From a virus: a DNA stretch of 29,529 nt. Positions 5,593 to 15,443 of this stretch are shown here, piece by piece. A model generated the notes under the pieces. The model was not told the DNA's origin. It searched no databases and worked only from the letters and a program-made list of their open reading frames with translations. Position numbers and translations under genes: made by a program. The stretch lies in the IMG/VR virus record IMGVR_UViG_3300041809_000236, positions 1-29,529 of that record; one strand, given 5' to 3'. Numbering within the stretch: the first letter of the stretch is position 1; every line of letters starts with the position of its first letter.

Positions 5593-6009
5593 TTACTTTG
5601 AATTGAACAACGCAACCTCTGCGGAACGCCGCGCAACCATGCCGGGGAGCACCTGGCCACCAGCGTGGACCCATCTCGGCAATTGCGCGGGGATCTGATC
5701 CACGCCATGCGCCAGCAATTGAACCAGCGCCCCCGACCCACATTCAAAAGTGAAATCAGCGACAGCATCCCATTGATTCTGGTTCAGGTCGAGCGCGAGA
5801 TGCTGCGCGTTCATGGCTGCATCGACCTTGGCTACATCCTTGCCTAGCAGTTCATCGGCTTCGGCCTCCGTGATGCCATTGGGGAACGACTCGCCCGGTA
5901 GCAAGTCGTGGCCATGACCGATCACCTGATGGCCATAGTCTCCCTGAACAGTTCCGACGAATCCCTCTTGGGTCTTGATGAATTCGATTCCTCTTACGCT
6001 TGTGTGCAT
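5593..6009 (-). CDS. Phage lysozyme (GH24-like endolysin)
   Basis: This 138-aa protein is preceded by a GAGGAT site. The N-terminus places E15 as the catalytic Glu (FIKTQEGF), with D24 nine residues later as in T4/P22-type lysozymes, then VIGHGHDLLPGE in the place of the usual TIGYGH block. Further family landmarks are GITEAEADELLGKDV, LNQNQWDAVADFTFECGSGAL and the C-terminal LPGMVARRSAEVALF. It hydrolyses peptidoglycan at the end of infection. No signal peptide is present, so a holin is expected to release it. The active-site Thr position appears to be V29, with one residue fewer between it and Asp. It is the last gene before the late terminator. Confidence 0.9.
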   Translation of the reverse strand: MHTSVRGIEFIKTQEGFVGTVQGDYGHQVIGHGHDLLPGESFPNGITEAEADELLGKDVAKVDAAMNAQHLALDLNQNQWDAVADFTFECGSGALVQLLAHGVDQIPAQLPRWVHAGGQVLPGMVARRSAEVALFNSK

Positions 6010-7415: not shown

Positions 7416-10400
7416 CTACTCGTAGTATCCCCACACCCTGACTGTCGCAACGAGTGTGGATGCGGTTGCCAAGGCAGTCGTGATATCCAAACTCACCGCA
7501 GTATTTGCCGCCACAGAGTTCGTTCCGTAGAGAGCACCTGTTGATAGGTTGAATTGCGGCAGCAGCGGCAGTGTCGTTCCAACTGCTATGTTTCCGCTTC
7601 CCGTTCCTATCCCGATGTTCGCCGCTGTCGTACTTAATGGATAAACTACATCACCATAGCTCTGACCAGAAGTGCCGATTTTCGCAACAAGATTTCCGGT
7701 TGCTGCGCTTCCGGTTGTGGAAGTAACTTCGATCTCTGCGCGAATCGGGTGAAACCGGCCATACCCCGAGGCTGTAGTGAAAATCGACGTAAGCCCTGTT
7801 GAAAGCAAGCTCACGCCAGTCGCTTCGTACTCATACAAAGCGTTGGCCGCGTTGGCGGTGATGGGTCCGCTCGGAGAACTGACACTGACACACGACCAAG
7901 CGTGCGTTGACGTGTTGTAAAGATCAGCCCCCGTCGTGCAGGTTGGCATTGCGACGGCTGTCGGTGCTGCCGACCCGCCCGTTGCGTTCATCACCGTCGT
8001 ATCCGCCGCTTGCGGCACTAAGGCGGTTGCCGTGGCCGCGTTTCCGCTTATATTGGCTGCTCCCAATGGCACGAAGATGGTTCCATTGCAGTAGCCAGCA
8101 ATATGCGTAGAGCCGCCTCCAACAAATGCCGAACCCGCAGTCGGATTTAAGGCATTGGTAACTCCAATGATCTGTCCCTCTGGATTTTCTCCAGTTCCAC
8201 AATTTGGGCTGCCCGCGACCGTGTAGGTCGGCAGAGTTGCCGCGCCGCCTTGAATCACCAGCCCTGTCTTCGGCGTGCCGCTTGTGCGCGTTCTCAGCCA
8301 GATCGCACTTGCTGCGTTGTTATAGGTGTTATCGAGATAGGTGTTGTCGTTGCTGTTTTTTGTCCACAGGTCAGTGCCGTATCCGTCAGGCTGATAGACC
8401 GAGAAGAAGTCGTCTAAGCCCACAGGTCCGGTCCAAGTCCAAGTGTTTCCGCGCAGCACGACCGTGCCTGAATTTGGATGAATGTCAAAAATGGGCGAAC
8501 TGTTAGTCCTAAAGCTGTAATATGCCGCGCTCGAATCGAGTGGGTTATTGATGATGTTCCATGCATAGGAGTTTCCGCCGATCTCGTTTATATCGAAGGT
8601 CAACCCGCCCGGCACTTCATTCTGTGATACGCCATTTGCTCCGATTAAATTCAGGTTCTTATACAGATTCACGTCATAGAGAAATGTTCCGCCGTATGCC
8701 GTCAACCCCACGACCGGAGAGAAAGTGCTCGTCTCGGTGAGCATCCCAAAAAAAGTGCTCGCCACACCGCCGCTGTCGATAGCGAGGATTTGACCGACAG
8801 TGCCACCAGTCAAAAACACGAATCCCGAATAATCGAAGATGTTGGTACTCTGAATCATCTCCGCGCTCCACCCGGAGCTATTGGGATTCGGCGTGATCCT
8901 CAGCGATGGCCAACCCCCGGCAAAACTGCTTACCGTCGCTGCCGACCGATATCCCACCATGATTTTTCCGTCAGGAAATTGATAGCCGTTGGGCCTTCCT
9001 GTGCCGGTGAACTGCGCCGCCGCAGTTGTCCACGTCACCCCGCCATCGCTGGAAGTGGAAGTAGCAATATTGTTCACCGTGGGCCAGTCGCGCAAAAAAG
9101 CCTCAAGGTTTCCATTATTGAGTTTGATCATCGTCACTTCGGTTGCGCCTGCGGTCGAAGTGTCGATGTTGCCGCGCACAGCCCACGAGGTTCCCTCGTT
9201 CGTCGTGCGAAAAATGCGATGGATGAAGTTGTTCGCGGATGTGTCGCGGCCATAGAGCGGCACCACAACCGACCCGTCGCCAAGCGGCACGCCGGGAGCG
9301 GTCACGGCGTTTTCATAGGCAAAGTTTCCGATGGCGCTATCAGAGGACCACGTTGCTCCAAGGTCTGTAGAGATGCGCGATTGAGCCTGTCCAATAGAAC
9401 TCAAATCGACCAGCATATAGGTCAACATGATGTGACCGTTGGAAAGCTGCACGCAGTTCGGATCACGCGAATCGTAGCTTGCGTTCGTCGCAATGACAGC
9501 CGGAGTGCTCCACGTAAACGTGTTGTTAGCTTGCAGCGTTCCGGTGCTGGCCATGATCGACGTTCCGTAAGAAATGGCGTGCGCTGGAGCGAGCCTCCAA
9601 ACCGCATACAAATTGCCGCCCGAGAGGCTGCAAATTCCGGGGAACGACGAAAACTGAGTGGACGCAAGAACCGTACTCGATGCGCTTGCCGGAAGGTTCT
9701 GAGCAACTACCCCATTCGTAGCCGCGACGGTGCCGGTAACGCTAAAGTTTCCCGTCCCATCCGTAGAGATTCCCGGCGCTGTGCTGACTGTCGTGCCGTT
9801 GGCTGCGTAGTAGGGTATCTGGCCGGTCGTGCCCGGATAGATTGTGCTACCGATCAGAGTTCCACTATCATCATCCCCTATATTCTCAACGTAAGCGACC
9901 GGCGTCGATCCAGCCACAATCATCGGTGCTGAGAACAGAATGGTCTTCCCGGCAGCAATCGTCGTCCCCGTTGTAGCAGCCAGAAGAATCGAAGGATACG
10001 CCGCGCCTACCGTACATGCGGCTGGTGAAAAGGTGAACGTGCCCGCTACTAAGAGCTTGTTGGGAGGCGTCATGTTGAGGTCTTCATAGTGCACCGTGCG
10101 CGACGGATTCTGAAGCGACCATCCAAAATTGTTCCCGGACGCATAGGTTCCATCCAGATACCCCGACATGGTGTAAGTCTGTCCGCAGATCAAATTGAAG
10201 GTCTCGGTTTGCGCCCACTGACTCTGGCCCGATGCTGCCGAACTCACCACAAAAGCGTTGGTATCTCCATAACCGAGTTTATTACCTATGCTGAAGTTCG
10301 CGCCCGGCGCGGTTCCGAATGTCCAGTAGGTTCCGGTTCCTGAACCTTCCAATTTAAGAGAACTGTCAGGTACAAGATTCTTGAAGATTGTTCCTGTTGG

Positions 10401-12356
10401 ATTCACTGGGTCGGCGCAATTCGCGGTACCATACGCTGTTACTCCAGTCGAAAACAAGTTCGTTCCGCACTGACCTGGAGCACTTTGAAAGGCCGAAGAC
10501 GTACCTGCGTTGCCGCTGATGTTTACGGGAAGGATAGAAGCGCTCGACGCGAGGCTCGGCACGTTGTCTGAATATCCCACCAAACCCTTCGTTAACAGCC
10601 CGTCGATGAATTTGGCAATGTTCACGTCGCCATTGGGATTAGGGTGATTGTTGTTGAGAAAAAACCCTTGCGCGTAGGTCCCACCGGGTCCAGCATACGG
10701 CCCCCATAGGTCGTACAGGTCGCCCCACACATAGTTGCTTGAGAGCAGCCAAGGCTGCACCGAGTTCTTATAACTCAGCAGTGTGCTAGAAATTCCGCCT
10801 CCATTATCTGGCTCAGAAACAAACACAATATCCGCTGCCGGGTTCGATGCCAATTCTTCTGCCACTAAAGCCTGCGAGTTAGATAGATAAGTCGCCGTGG
10901 AAACCGCTGCGTTCGCATCGTTGATGCCGAGCATATTGACATACGTGCTGCACCCAAGCGCCATCCATGCTGCCTCCATGGTCGCAGCATTCGCCCCCGC
11001 CCAAGCGCCTGTGGTGCTCCCACTATGGCCCAGGTCGTGCAGGATGGTTCCGTACTTCCCGTTCAGACCGTTCGTGCCGAATATGATGACGCCGTTTGTC
11101 CCAGCCGCTGTGACTGTCACCGTCTCGCTATTGCTGAAGGCGGCGAGATTGAAGCCGGTGATCTTAGTGATTTGAAGTCCAGTGTAAGATGCCGTGTTGA
11201 TCGTGTGCGGCCCTCCGCTTCCATCTGTATACGTAAATGAACCGCCGCCCGGCTGGCCCCACCAAAAGAGGTCGACTTCTGACACTGACGAGCCCCATGG
11301 AAGATCCGAAGGGAAGGCCGGAGACTGAGGAAAAGCCCAAATAATAGTTCCGCCTGTACCAGCCGATTTAGCTGCGGTCAGATCGGGACCAACGGGAGAT
11401 TGGCCCGCATTCCCGTCCAATACCGTCCAGCTTCCAGTCAGCGTCACTGATACACCGTTAATAGGGTAGTTGCCGTACCCTGCTCCGTAGCCAGTCGTGT
11501 TTGTCCACCCCGGTCCTCCGCTTCCCCAAGTTTCGCCCATGAACAAAGCAGAATAGAGCGTCCAATGAAATGAACTCCATGAATCGGCAGGTGCGGCGCA
11601 TACCACAGCAGAGCGGGAGCCACCAGCTAAACGCGGGTTTTCTATTGCGCTTACCGCTGACTGGAAATTGAGCGCTTGTTGGTTGATTGATATTGAACTT
11701 GGCGAGGTAGATACCGTAGCCTTATCCGCTAGGGTGCCTGTCACGTTGAGGTTGCCGGTGATGGTGCAGGTGATGGGAGAACCCGAACAAGAGAAGCCAA
11801 TCGGAAGAGAGCCCTGAATCCATGAGACCCCGTCCCAGCTTAGACTTACGTTGGTCGTGGTGTTCATAAAGATAGCGCCGGGCTTTGGGCTAGGCGAGAC
11901 TTCAATGGTTCCGTATCCGTAGGCGTTTGGGTTGGCGGCGAAGCGTGGTCCAGAGGCAGATGCGCTGAGAAGTGAGGTCAAATTGACACTTGATCCCGTC
12001 ACTAGCCAAGTCACTGCAAAACATCCCGAAGTTGCCAGAGGGCAAATGGAAAAATTCCATTTAGACCCGCTCGGAGTGATTTGGTTATTGTCTGGCAAGG
12101 ATACTGAGAACGCTCCAGACGCATCGAGAGACCCGGTAAACAGGTTGTTTTGTTGGAGGTTGCCACCAGTCCATACATAGCTCTGCGGATTCGGCCATTG
12201 CGGGTTTGGTGCAAAGCTGATACGGTATGAGCCGTTCATCCACGCAAATCCGTCCGAGTCGGTAATCGTTGCCGAAGTAGTGGTGGACTGAGCGCAGGCA
12301 AACACGCCGCACAACAAGAACACGCAAACCAAAGCGATGATGACAATGCGTTTCAT
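7416..12356 (-). CDS. Giant tail/receptor-binding protein with SGNH and sialidase domains
   Basis: This 1646-aa protein begins with a Sec-type signal peptide (MKRIVIIALV, hydrophobic to residue 19, then FACAQ). A beta-rich N-terminal module follows, with close Cys pairs C105/C112 and C190/C197. Residues ~245-590 look like an SGNH/GDSL hydrolase: PADS259, G443 in HDLGHSG, LGIND (N479) and NNNHPNPNG (H571). Residues ~650-825 resemble a jelly-roll carbohydrate-binding module. Residues ~900-1190 are a sialidase-like propeller with three Asp-boxes (STDLGATW, TTNEGTSW, SSDGGVTW). NISGNAG and NISGNAATATAL segments are typical of tail fibres. It probably binds and deacylates or cleaves surface glycans. 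It is coupled to the ATP-grasp gene (ATGA). Confidence 0.85.
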   Translation of the reverse strand: MKRIVIIALVCVFLLCGVFACAQSTTTSATITDSDGFAWMNGSYRISFAPNPQWPNPQSYVWTGGNLQQNNLFTGSLDASGAFSVSLPDNNQITPSGSKWNFSICPLATSGCFAVTWLVTGSSVNLTSLLSASASGPRFAANPNAYGYGTIEVSPSPKPGAIFMNTTTNVSLSWDGVSWIQGSLPIGFSCSGSPITCTITGNLNVTGTLADKATVSTSPSSISINQQALNFQSAVSAIENPRLAGGSRSAVVCAAPADSWSSFHWTLYSALFMGETWGSGGPGWTNTTGYGAGYGNYPINGVSVTLTGSWTVLDGNAGQSPVGPDLTAAKSAGTGGTIIWAFPQSPAFPSDLPWGSSVSEVDLFWWGQPGGGSFTYTDGSGGPHTINTASYTGLQITKITGFNLAAFSNSETVTVTAAGTNGVIIFGTNGLNGKYGTILHDLGHSGSTTGAWAGANAATMEAAWMALGCSTYVNMLGINDANAAVSTATYLSNSQALVAEELASNPAADIVFVSEPDNGGGISSTLLSYKNSVQPWLLSSNYVWGDLYDLWGPYAGPGGTYAQGFFLNNNHPNPNGDVNIAKFIDGLLTKGLVGYSDNVPSLASSASILPVNISGNAGTSSAFQSAPGQCGTNLFSTGVTAYGTANCADPVNPTGTIFKNLVPDSSLKLEGSGTGTYWTFGTAPGANFSIGNKLGYGDTNAFVVSSAASGQSQWAQTETFNLICGQTYTMSGYLDGTYASGNNFGWSLQNPSRTVHYEDLNMTPPNKLLVAGTFTFSPAACTVGAAYPSILLAATTGTTIAAGKTILFSAPMIVAGSTPVAYVENIGDDDSGTLIGSTIYPGTTGQIPYYAANGTTVSTAPGISTDGTGNFSVTGTVAATNGVVAQNLPASASSTVLASTQFSSFPGICSLSGGNLYAVWRLAPAHAISYGTSIMASTGTLQANNTFTWSTPAVIATNASYDSRDPNCVQLSNGHIMLTYMLVDLSSIGQAQSRISTDLGATWSSDSAIGNFAYENAVTAPGVPLGDGSVVVPLYGRDTSANNFIHRIFRTTNEGTSWAVRGNIDTSTAGATEVTMIKLNNGNLEAFLRDWPTVNNIATSTSSDGGVTWTTAAAQFTGTGRPNGYQFPDGKIMVGYRSAATVSSFAGGWPSLRITPNPNSSGWSAEMIQSTNIFDYSGFVFLTGGTVGQILAIDSGGVASTFFGMLTETSTFSPVVGLTAYGGTFLYDVNLYKNLNLIGANGVSQNEVPGGLTFDINEIGGNSYAWNIINNPLDSSAAYYSFRTNSSPIFDIHPNSGTVVLRGNTWTWTGPVGLDDFFSVYQPDGYGTDLWTKNSNDNTYLDNTYNNAASAIWLRTRTSGTPKTGLVIQGGAATLPTYTVAGSPNCGTGENPEGQIIGVTNALNPTAGSAFVGGGSTHIAGYCNGTIFVPLGAANISGNAATATALVPQAADTTVMNATGGSAAPTAVAMPTCTTGADLYNTSTHAWSCVSVSSPSGPITANAANALYEYEATGVSLLSTGLTSIFTTASGYGRFHPIRAEIEVTSTTGSAATGNLVAKIGTSGQSYGDVVYPLSTTAANIGIGTGSGNIAVGTTLPLLPQFNLSTGALYGTNSVAANTAVSLDITTALATASTLVATVRVWGYYE

Positions 12357-13651
12357 TCAAGCCACCCCATCACGCGGACTTCTTCAAGCCGCTTTGCTGT
12401 TGAGTCTTCCAAGTCGTCCCGACATTGCAGATTCGGAAACTTGATTGGTTTCGAGATGCGGTCCAGTCCCTTCCATGCACCTTCGGGAGTGTAGGCGCTG
12501 GCGATTGGGCAGCAAACAATTCCGTTGATTCCAACCGTTACGAGTCCATCTTCGCCGCCGCGATGCTTGTCCATCATGGCATCCCAGAGGTAGCAGTTCC
12601 GCCATGCGCTGTCGATGTCGATTCCCTTGATGGGGAGGCCCGCTGCGAAGTCGGCGTGCTCTTCGGGATACGGAGGCATGGTCAAACGCTCGGAAGCCGC
12701 CCAGCGGCCACGCAAGGGAGGGGCCGGGCTACTCTCAATGTATCCGTCTTCTGGAGCGGTCACGATGTCATAGAAGAACTGTCCCAGGTCTCCATCGATC
12801 AGAGAGAATATCGTTGCACTCGCGTCGTATCCGAAACGTGGAGTGAATTCCAGTCCGTAAGCGTGCGACTCGTTGACGATTGTGTTGAGGTCGATCATGC
12901 CCCGGTATCCAGCCTCTTTGAGAAATGGAGCAAGTTTCTGTAGTTCGCCGGCCAGCCTGTTCGGTCGATCTAGCGCCCAAACCAGATTGCCAGAGCATCC
13001 GGTATTCGGCCCGAACGATCCCGACATGAACTTCTTCTCTTCCAACGTGTGATTGAGGAAATGGAAATACGTCCCATCGAAGTACCCCTCGGTAGAGATT
13101 TCCGTGCCTTCCACCACCTCTTGAAGCAAAAACGATGCCTGATGGGAGTCCTCCCATAATGAATCGATTGTGCGGATCAAATCCTCTGCGGAGTCGGCAA
13201 CGTAGGTTGTGTCGCATTCCTGCTCTACGCCGTCCTCCACAAACGGTTTGAAGACATACCGCTTTGGGTTCTCAGCGATGAACGCCTTGGCCTCTTCGGG
13301 ATTGTCGAACGTCTCGTAGGCGGGAACTTCGATTCCGGCTTCTTCCATGACCTGAATACCGTAAAGGCGGTCGTCTTCAAGTTTGGATGCAAGTTCGGAA
13401 TCGCCGATGACGGGGCAAACCTTCGACGCTTCCTCGGCCAGTTCTGCGTTGCCCGTGCAGTCGAATATGGTCAGGTCGTAGTCGGAGAAGTTGGGCTTCT
13501 CTTTGAGCGGGGGAGGGATGAGGCCCTTCAAGACAGAAGAATGGCGCGGCTCCGGTTCAATCTCGAACCACGCCACTTCATGTCCTTCGCGGGCGAGTCG
13601 CATGAGCATCCAAGCGCCGATGCCGCCCGCCGATGCAAGCAGGATGCGCAT
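12353..13651 (-). CDS. ATP-grasp ligase, PurD-like fold
   Basis: This 432-aa protein, preceded by GGGAGAGAAC, has an N-terminal nucleotide-binding-type strand-loop-helix (ILLASAGGIGAWMLMRLARE) and an ATP-grasp core. The core shows YVFKPFVEDG (ATP-binding Lys), LLQEVVEGTEISTEGYFDG (Glu-rich adenine/hinge strand) and YGLEFTPRFGYDASATI, the counterpart of the EfNxRFGDPE metal site of PurD (phosphoribosylamine-glycine ligase). The metal-binding Asn is replaced by Thr here, although the Glu and Arg remain. ATP-grasp enzymes join a carboxylate to an amine or thiol. Lying in a structural operon, coupled to the tail protein, a role in purine synthesis seems unlikely; modifying a virion protein or small molecule is more plausible. 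The substrate is unknown. Confidence 0.88.
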   Translation of the reverse strand: MRILLASAGGIGAWMLMRLAREGHEVAWFEIEPEPRHSSVLKGLIPPPLKEKPNFSDYDLTIFDCTGNAELAEEASKVCPVIGDSELASKLEDDRLYGIQVMEEAGIEVPAYETFDNPEEAKAFIAENPKRYVFKPFVEDGVEQECDTTYVADSAEDLIRTIDSLWEDSHQASFLLQEVVEGTEISTEGYFDGTYFHFLNHTLEEKKFMSGSFGPNTGCSGNLVWALDRPNRLAGELQKLAPFLKEAGYRGMIDLNTIVNESHAYGLEFTPRFGYDASATIFSLIDGDLGQFFYDIVTAPEDGYIESSPAPPLRGRWAASERLTMPPYPEEHADFAAGLPIKGIDIDSAWRNCYLWDAMMDKHRGGEDGLVTVGINGIVCCPIASAYTPEGAWKGLDRISKPIKFPNLQCRDDLEDSTAKRLEEVRVMGWLE

Positions 13652-13663
13652 GTTCTCTCCCGG

Positions 13664-13912
13664 CTAGGTGGTCTTGCCGCTTCCGCTGTTGACGCCGGTT
13701 ACGCCGCCCGTGGCATTGCCGCCCATCGACGACAGAAACTCGTCGCAGATGTTCTTGTGCGGTGCGATCTCCGGGCCTTCGCCCGCGCCGCCCTTGCGGC
13801 CCATGCCGCCGATGGCGCTGGTGTCGGACGCGGTGACGCCGCCCCTGGTCTTGATTTCGCTGATGGCGCTCTTCACGCCGCCCATCGTCTGTCCTGCGCT
13901 CTGTCCAGCCAT
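13664..13912 (-). CDS. 82-aa Gly/Ser/Thr-rich protein before the ATP-grasp gene
   Basis: The start at 13912 (MAGQSAGQTMGG) is set by a GGAGGGAA sequence; longer upstream frames run into the preceding gene. The protein is Gly-rich (about a quarter Gly) with a short helix in the middle (PHKNICDEFLSSM) and a Gly/Thr/Ser/Asn tail ending SGSGKTT. No domain is recognised and no membrane segment is present. Its stop is 12 nt before the ATP-grasp start, so the two are co-translated. It may be a minor virion protein or a substrate or partner of the ligase; both are inference. Confidence 0.75.
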   Translation of the reverse strand: MAGQSAGQTMGGVKSAISEIKTRGGVTASDTSAIGGMGRKGGAGEGPEIAPHKNICDEFLSSMGGNATGGVTGVNSGSGKTT

Positions 13913-13952
13913 GTCATTCCCTCCAAAAGGGTTTGGTGAAAGTTTACCACGG

Positions 13953-15443
13953 TTACTGTTGCGAATCGCGCGAACGAATGGCATCGAGGATACCCTGAAC
14001 CACCCGAACGCCCTCCGGGGACTTCTTTGCGGCCTTGGCAATATAGGGAGCAGCGTTGGCGATGGCCCGTTGTGTTGCGATGTCAGCAAATGGAGAATCG
14101 GATAGATGTCTGGCTCCCCCAGCGGCAACCGCTCCAAAAGCAGCATCCTTTAGCATATTTTCTGGGTGTCCAGTTGCCGCAGCATACCCCGCGCCCGCCG
14201 CCGCTCCCCCTACAGCCCATTTTGCCCTGGTGGCTATTCCATGAGACGGAGAAAGTTCTTGCCCAACGATCTTCTTATTCGCGGCTTCGCGGGCGATGAT
14301 AAGGTTCGTCTGAATCTTGTTGTTTGAGCGGAATGCGCGGGCCTCTGCTTCAGGAAGGCCCTGTGCGATGGAATCGTTTAGATCGTGGTAAATCTTCTGC
14401 AAGAACCACTGCCTGGGATTCGTGGTTTCAGGATTCCAGTCCTTGATTTGCTGCTGGATCGACTTGCGCATGGCGTGCATTTGCGCGGGAGTCATCTTGC
14501 CCGTTGCAGATGCACCGTGTTCACCTGCAACCCGCTGCATCTCTTCAAGGTTGGCATCAATCATTCCCTTGGTCGTTTCGGGAAACTCGCCCAGAGATAC
14601 CGCCTTGTCAAGTTCCACCGCCCGGTCGAGGATCTTGGCGTCGAGGTCTACCAGTCTCCCGCTCGGAGATGCGACAATCCTCTCCGTTTGGGTGTTGCGC
14701 AGCGCCCGCGCCGCCTCTATGGCGTCCCGCTGCATCGGCAAAGTCTTCTTGATTCCGCACTCGTTCAGAACGGTTCTGGCAATCTCGTTCGAGTCCTCTA
14801 CCGTTCTTCCCCACTTCGGCAGGTCTGTCGGCTTGAGTCCGATGTAGTTGTTTACTCCTTTGATAACCTTCGGCAGAGCAGCCGCACCGATTTTCTCGAA
14901 AAGTTTCCCCGCACCGATTCCGCCAAGCTCGAATGCCCCCTGTTCCGCTCCCGCCGCCAGTTCCGCGCCAGCCGAACGTGGTTTCCCTGCTGCATCTCGC
15001 GCGATTCCCTCCCCAACGAATCCACCGTAGGCCGCGCCGGCCACCGCGCCCGCAGGGCCGGCTACAGCCGCGCCGCCGATTCCGCCAAAAGTGGCAAGGA
15101 TCGGAGATGCCGCGCCCACTACGGAGCGCATGTTCTTTCCGAGCATAGATTCAGGTTTACGAGGAGCGCCTGCCTTTTCATCTGGCGCAAGCTCTCCTCC
15201 CAAGTCCTTCTGGTAGTGGTCGAGTTTATCTTGGGGAACCCACTTCGTTGCGTTCAGTGTCTTTTGATCGCCCGCTGTGGTGTAGAAGTTCATCTTCCAC
15301 GCACGCACCCCACCCTTCGCACGCATGGAATCGTACTGCGAAGCAGGCACCATCTTCACCACGTTCCCATGCTTCGGAAACATTACGGGGATTTGCGCCT
15401 CGTCAGACGATGGAAGGTTCGGCAATGTGGGAGTCGTAGCCAT
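13953..15443 (-). CDS. Internal virion (ejection-type) protein with glycine zippers
   Basis: This 496-aa protein starts by a TAATG overlap with the preceding gene. After an N-terminal segment with NFYTTAGDQKTLNATKWVP there is an Ala/Gly-rich hydrophobic stretch (about 110-150, FGGIGGAAVAGPAGAVAGAA) of glycine-zipper type. A long helical middle follows (ERIVASPSGRLVDLDAKILD; MHAMRKSIQQQIKDW), then a second Gly/Ala stretch (about 405-445, AVGGAAAGAGYAAATG). Membrane-active zippers inside a helical virion protein are characteristic of podovirus internal core or ejection proteins that form a channel for DNA entry. No lytic transglycosylase motif is evident. Confidence 0.72.
   Translation of the reverse strand: MATTPTLPNLPSSDEAQIPVMFPKHGNVVKMVPASQYDSMRAKGGVRAWKMNFYTTAGDQKTLNATKWVPQDKLDHYQKDLGGELAPDEKAGAPRKPESMLGKNMRSVVGAASPILATFGGIGGAAVAGPAGAVAGAAYGGFVGEGIARDAAGKPRSAGAELAAGAEQGAFELGGIGAGKLFEKIGAAALPKVIKGVNNYIGLKPTDLPKWGRTVEDSNEIARTVLNECGIKKTLPMQRDAIEAARALRNTQTERIVASPSGRLVDLDAKILDRAVELDKAVSLGEFPETTKGMIDANLEEMQRVAGEHGASATGKMTPAQMHAMRKSIQQQIKDWNPETTNPRQWFLQKIYHDLNDSIAQGLPEAEARAFRSNNKIQTNLIIAREAANKKIVGQELSPSHGIATRAKWAVGGAAAGAGYAAATGHPENMLKDAAFGAVAAGGARHLSDSPFADIATQRAIANAAPYIAKAAKKSPEGVRVVQGILDAIRSRDSQQ

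Follow-up and report, generated by a model that had tools for sequence, protein, structure and literature searches.

What does an ATP-grasp ligase do inside the virion module of a soil phage, and is the small gene in front of it its partner? These questions are raised by the window, that is, the whole stretch of DNA that was analyzed, which is a full virus record of 29,529 bases. On its minus strand lies a gene for a 432-aa ligase (12353..13651, ATG start), preceded by an 82-aa ORF (13664..13912) with its own Shine-Dalgarno GGAGG (13920..13924). The two ORFs are separated by 12 nt, and the ligase stop overlaps the start of a fiber gene in an ATGA (12353..12356). These ORFs read as the initial annotation had claimed, including the coupling to what it called a tail protein, and the composition bears out its description of the 82-aa protein as rich in Gly, Ser, and Thr.

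The fiber-like protein (7416..12356, minus strand; 1646 aa) has GDSL-like and BNR regions (Pfam BNR_2, 4.3e-17; Lipase_GDSL_2, weak, 2.3e-4). Upstream of the small gene is a 496-aa protein (13953..15443, minus strand) that has no Pfam match and is, by its conserved position, a putative internal virion protein. The nearby genes also include those for an SU10-like portal and for a protein that resembles head-closure proteins. The usual order in relatives is tail and connector genes, internal-protein genes, the small gene, the ligase, sometimes a gene here called c10 (product of 125-145 aa), and the fiber, and the same fiber cluster lies downstream of the ligase in these relatives. Rfam and tRNA searches of the window gave no matches. 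An ORF at 5593-6009 (minus strand) resembles a phage lysozyme, as judged by eye.

Fold, active site, and separation from PurD

In Pfam, the ligase matches GARS_A (E = 3.9e-12), and the scan named GARS_A, ATP-grasp_3, and ATP-grasp_4 only. The ATP-grasp (GARS_A-like) domain spans residues 97-274 (12830..13363, minus strand), and GARS_C was matched significantly in one or more relatives. An AlphaFold2 model built from 38 sequences (pLDDT 91.6, pTM 0.90) has the complete GARS fold, A and C domains included. In a fold search with this model, GAR synthetases fill the top 15 places among PDB structures (E values starting at 2.8e-26; identity near 20%), with biotin carboxylase (1.7e-16) and PylC (4.9e-15) ranked lower. 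Residues K135, E178, TLEEKKFM (202-209, with E204-M209 invariant), D254, N256, E268, and R272 are conserved in the 38 sequences, and the ligase thus has the nucleotide-binding Lys and metal-binding acidic residues of the ATP-grasp superfamily. Because the active-site positions are conserved across this alignment, the ligase is very probably an active enzyme.

We detected at least 80 viral homologs, with identities of 33 to 69%. No PHROGs family was found for the ligase, none of the viral structure models matched it over its full length (best TM 0.40), and our literature search found no description of this phage family.

The initial annotation had suspected an enzyme divergent from purine synthesis, and several lines of evidence agree. 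The ligase scores 66.6 bits against TIGR00877 (PurD), for which the cut-off is 288. In a phylogenetic tree, PurD sequences are separated from the phage enzymes and their cellular paralogs by a branch of length 4.1 (support 100/100). Throughout the phage family, the PurD motif DHKR is replaced by EEKKFM, and EFNARFGDPE by EFTPRFGYD (residues 268-276 of the window ligase; 12824..12850, minus strand). The annotation was also right to point out a metal-site Thr where PurD has Asn. This Thr is common to phage enzymes and cellular paralogs, with Asn in the PurD sequences compared, and EFTPRFGY is a family signature rather than a peculiarity of the window phage. Furthermore, each of the four haloarchaeal genomes examined encodes a PurD above the cut-off together with a separate, weak-scoring homolog that resembles the phage enzyme. 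On sequence comparison, then, the ligase groups with cellular PurD paralogs and is not PurD.

These paralogs occur in haloarchaea, some Acidobacteriota, and single Nanoarchaeota and Patescibacteria metagenome-assembled genomes (MAGs). They form a conserved chromosomal gene in the haloarchaeal (L055-L132) and acidobacterial (L220-L229) loci. We looked for conserved neighbors of the haloarchaeal homologs and found none; some acidobacterial copies adjoin an AmpG-like permease and an aminotransferase, both named by eye. A ligase homolog was present in 12 of 396 Acidobacteriota genomes surveyed, and the neighborhoods retrieved were of the cellular paralog kind, not prophage, except for one frameshifted phage-like copy. 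This copy, in an Acidobacteriaceae bog MAG (L054, G005:C256), is about 66% identical to the window ligase and hints at an acidobacterial host.

The small gene and its pairing with the ligase

Two ligase-based scans of IMG/VR yielded 84 loci, a set in which some contigs are near-identical. A small gene with a comparable conserved N-terminus lies upstream of the ligase in all 75 testable main-clade loci, which include the window, L038, and, on a contig from a bacterial MAG, L053; L004 and L047 are truncated where their contigs stop. The arrangement of ligase and small gene is not due to chance, given at least 80 viral homologs, an invariant active site, and a small ORF that recurs in 75 of 75 loci. 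The pairing persists even where genes have been inserted between its two members (e.g., L018, L028, L034, and L155). In L028 the insertion is an HNH-endonuclease-like ORF, identified by eye (-424 to +19 of the ligase match), and insertions also occur in L018, L030, L032, L034, and L155.

Scans that started from the small gene gave the same picture: the ligase was present at every type-A locus (28 of 28) and at every testable type-C locus (7 of 7). A scan with the tail gene c2, which presupposes neither gene, yielded 62 loci that extended far enough downstream, many of them on contigs already known from the other scans. Both the small gene and the ligase (type 1) are present in 59 of these. Of the other three, L301 has a distant ligase elsewhere in the locus and no small gene, and L293 and L332 keep the small gene without a type-1 ligase, carrying a second ATP-grasp-like family instead.

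Outside the main clade, no small gene was found at nine distant loci (L049, L050, and L160-L166), and it is absent from the distant phage ligases L052 and L301 and from the cellular homologs. Since these ligases occur without it, the small gene is not needed for the chemistry of the family. The expectation of the initial annotation that the small gene and the fiber gene regularly accompany the ligase therefore stands for the main clade and its downstream fiber cluster; homologs without the small gene, which it had named as contrary evidence, do exist, all of them beyond that clade.

The small proteins are fast-changing. The 66 distinct sequences fall into several types (A, C, and D among those named), and types C and D show little conservation when placed in one mixed alignment. 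They share a short arm at the N-terminus and, next to it, what is probably a helix; the remainder is a variable tail in which Gly, Lys, Ser, and Thr abound. In the window protein, the conserved N-terminal stretch is about 25 aa long. Typical N-termini are MSGQSAxLSLKEAKAMQERVQ, MVAPHxHTxEEVKxxIK, and MSFYGNxEDAKxxA. At residue 2 only Ser, Ala, Val, Gly, Thr, and Pro occur, all of which permit removal of the initial Met, and every tail has at least two lysines (66 of 66 in each case). Asp and Glu are absent from four of the 66 tails, and eight more have a single such residue. We found no common modification motif and no repeated core in the 66 tails, and neither the window protein nor the representatives tested matched a family in Pfam or PHROGs.

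A partial distance correlation at first seemed to show that the small protein follows the ligase and not its upstream neighbor. However, a control with all genes gave just as high a correlation with the ligase for the tail gene c2 (0.88 versus 0.87). In view of this control, we dropped specific co-evolution of ligase and small protein as evidence.

A second ATP-grasp-like family and a fiber with a predicted export signal

In L293 (17084-18436) and L332 (15713-17014), the small gene is followed by a different protein of 427-450 aa, in L332 with one 125-aa ORF in between. This type-2 protein has no ATP-grasp match in Pfam. Its profile nevertheless aligns with that of the ligase family in hhalign at 98.8% probability (E = 4.5e-17; 385 collinear columns), against 0.3% for a control comparison with the tail-gene alignment, and a type-2 HMM matches type-1 ligases directly at 1e-6 to 1e-9. 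On the strength of the profile comparison, its control, and these direct matches, the type-2 family is a remote homolog of the window ligase. A structure model from three type-2 sequences reached a pLDDT of 45, too low for a confident fold, and we set it aside as evidence.

The type-2 family is found in 15 viral loci (L293, L332, L343, and L347-L358), mostly of other phages, and no such small gene was found in most of them. The type-2 enzymes of L293 and L332 are 54% identical, yet the small proteins beside them belong to different types (A and D). In other phages, type-2 ligases are often preceded by a very long ORF (1,078-2,450 aa).

Two further genes recur near these ligases. The c10 gene encodes a protein of 125-220 aa with an HE(L/M)xEAxLC motif (e.g., L135:10944-11330) and adjoins either ligase type: at 31 of 113 type-1 loci it is found no more than 1.5 kb downstream, and a c10-like gene is directly beside the type-2 gene in 9 of 20 type-2 loci, both counts being redundant. 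No match to c10 was found in Pfam, PHROGs, or 50,697 phage records. GNAT acetyltransferase genes also recur near phage ATP-grasp genes (L293:18433-18903; L356, -472 to -56; L357; and MW202796, L052).

The tail protein of the initial annotation bears a predicted export signal at its N-terminus (MKRIVIIALVCVFLLCGVFACA/Q; 12291..12356, minus strand; rule-based call), and a signal-peptide scan of the window flagged this fiber alone. An export signal is unusual on the fiber of a tailed phage. A strict rule predicts a signal peptide for the first fiber downstream of the ligase at 54 or more of 66 loci, versus 1 of 530 other module proteins. The fibers of L035 and L047 were missed by this rule, yet are signal-peptide-like. 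The peptide often ends in AQ before TTTV.ATVTDSDG, and in L005, L011, L016, and L145 the same domain begins directly after Met.

What the ligase might act on

Late in infection, the ligase probably couples some group to a molecule of the phage or of the host. The reading that we tentatively favor, with less than even confidence, is that of a late carboxylate-amine ligase, encoded in the virion module, whose likeliest cognate partner is the small protein. By homology with GAR synthetase, the enzyme would use ATP to convert a carboxylate, probably that of an amino acid, to an acyl phosphate, which would then be passed to an amine. The conserved N-terminal stretch of the small protein might be the recognition part, and the acceptors could be the amines of its tail lysines or of its exposed N-terminus. 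We infer this chemistry, the amine acceptor, and a product that acts in or with the virion.

Two things make the small protein the leading candidate for a substrate or cofactor: it is the most consistent partner in one lineage, and it stays when the enzyme is swapped. The GARS fold, the invariant catalytic residues, the pairing, the retention of the small gene at the type-2 swap, the tail lysines, and the nature of residue 2 all argue for such a partnership. Against it stands the absence of the small gene from distant phage ligases, cellular homologs, and most type-2 loci. The virion module is also syntenic throughout, so adjacency alone is weak evidence, and type-2 enzymes of 54% identity beside small proteins of different types argue against strict leader-enzyme matching. 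Our confidence is held low by the wide occurrence of the enzyme without the small gene, by this mismatch, and by the c2 control. More doubtful is a broader proposal that this is a peptide-ligation system of a widespread soil-phage lineage, in which two divergent PurD-fold ligase families serve a fast-evolving, leader-like small protein, and the modified product is part of the virion or is delivered by it.

Somewhat less likely than our favored reading is that the enzyme makes a small molecule or alters a host metabolite or envelope precursor (e.g., for superinfection exclusion) with neither neighbor needed. The modeled fold, which is that of a small-molecule ligase, is consistent with this, as are the solitary haloarchaeal homologs, the permease-like gene beside some acidobacterial copies (AmpG-like by eye), and phage amidoligase/GATase pairs proposed as cell-wall modifiers (PMC10580990). 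However, it leaves unexplained why the small gene is invariant, why it persists when another enzyme takes over, and why the ligase has a fixed place in the virion module. Slightly less likely again is a ligase that modifies a virion protein, either an internal protein or the exported fiber, with the small protein an independent minor virion component of the lineage. The location of the ligase between the internal-protein block and the fiber gene in relatives of the window points that way, as do the long ORFs upstream of many type-2 ligases, but there is no fusion or shared motif, and, given the export signal of the fiber in most relatives, a cytoplasmic ligase could reach it only ahead of export.

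The initial annotation had drawn an analogy with graspetides, in which side-chain ester or amide cross-links would form within the small protein. Such a pathway is consistent with an ATP-grasp enzyme whose small neighbor has a conserved N-terminal part and a variable tail, but the enzyme is of the GAR-synthetase type, not RimK/MdnC-like, as its top 15 fold matches indicate, and the four tails without an Asp/Glu donor, the eight with one, and the absence of a repeated core do not suit a core of Asp/Glu donors and Ser/Thr/Lys acceptors. We therefore rejected this highly improbable pathway on enzyme fold and tail composition; the broader notion of a ligase encoded next to a small substrate survives. 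Least probable of all is that the phage boosts purine synthesis with a phosphoribosylamine-glycine ligase of its own. This would account for a fold and architecture the same as those of GAR synthetase, but was rejected on the score far below the PurD cut-off, the long branch, the replaced motifs, and the true PurD that also resides in homologous genomes.

Essentially every member of the lineage has the ligase, which suggests a role for amide ligation in how these phages make or deploy their virions. For our preferred reading, a ligase acting with the small protein, the small gene provides a concrete candidate substrate. The ligase family would otherwise be annotated as PurD, a false purine gene.

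Amidoligases are glutamine-synthetase-like and differ in fold from the ligase described here. Phage pairs of amidoligase and GATase (PF12224 and PF13522), for which envelope or peptide targets have been suggested (PMC10580990), are phage ligases like that of the window, but the window locus has no GATase. The R2K ligases of phages are likewise ATP-grasp enzymes and predicted protein modifiers, and they are described as a CDC123-related clade with no linked target genes (PMC4431377), a description that sets them apart from the window ligase. Graspetide systems likewise pair an ATP-grasp enzyme with a neighboring small protein whose N-terminus is conserved, whereas here the enzyme is PurD-type and the donor Asp/Glu is missing from several tails. 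PurD itself (GAR synthetase; TIGR00877, PF01071, and PF02843) has the same full-length fold, ATP-grasp Lys and acidic residues, and GPNTG loop. The phage ligase differs in its sub-cut-off score, in Thr for the metal-site Asn, EEKKFM for DHKR, and GYD for GDPE, in its separate phylogenetic position, and in its place in a virion module. The cellular PurD-like paralogs, in turn, are chromosomal, stand without the small gene, and in haloarchaea have no conserved neighbors, yet they are about 30% identical to the phage ligase and share its LEFTPRFGY and R-x-D signatures.
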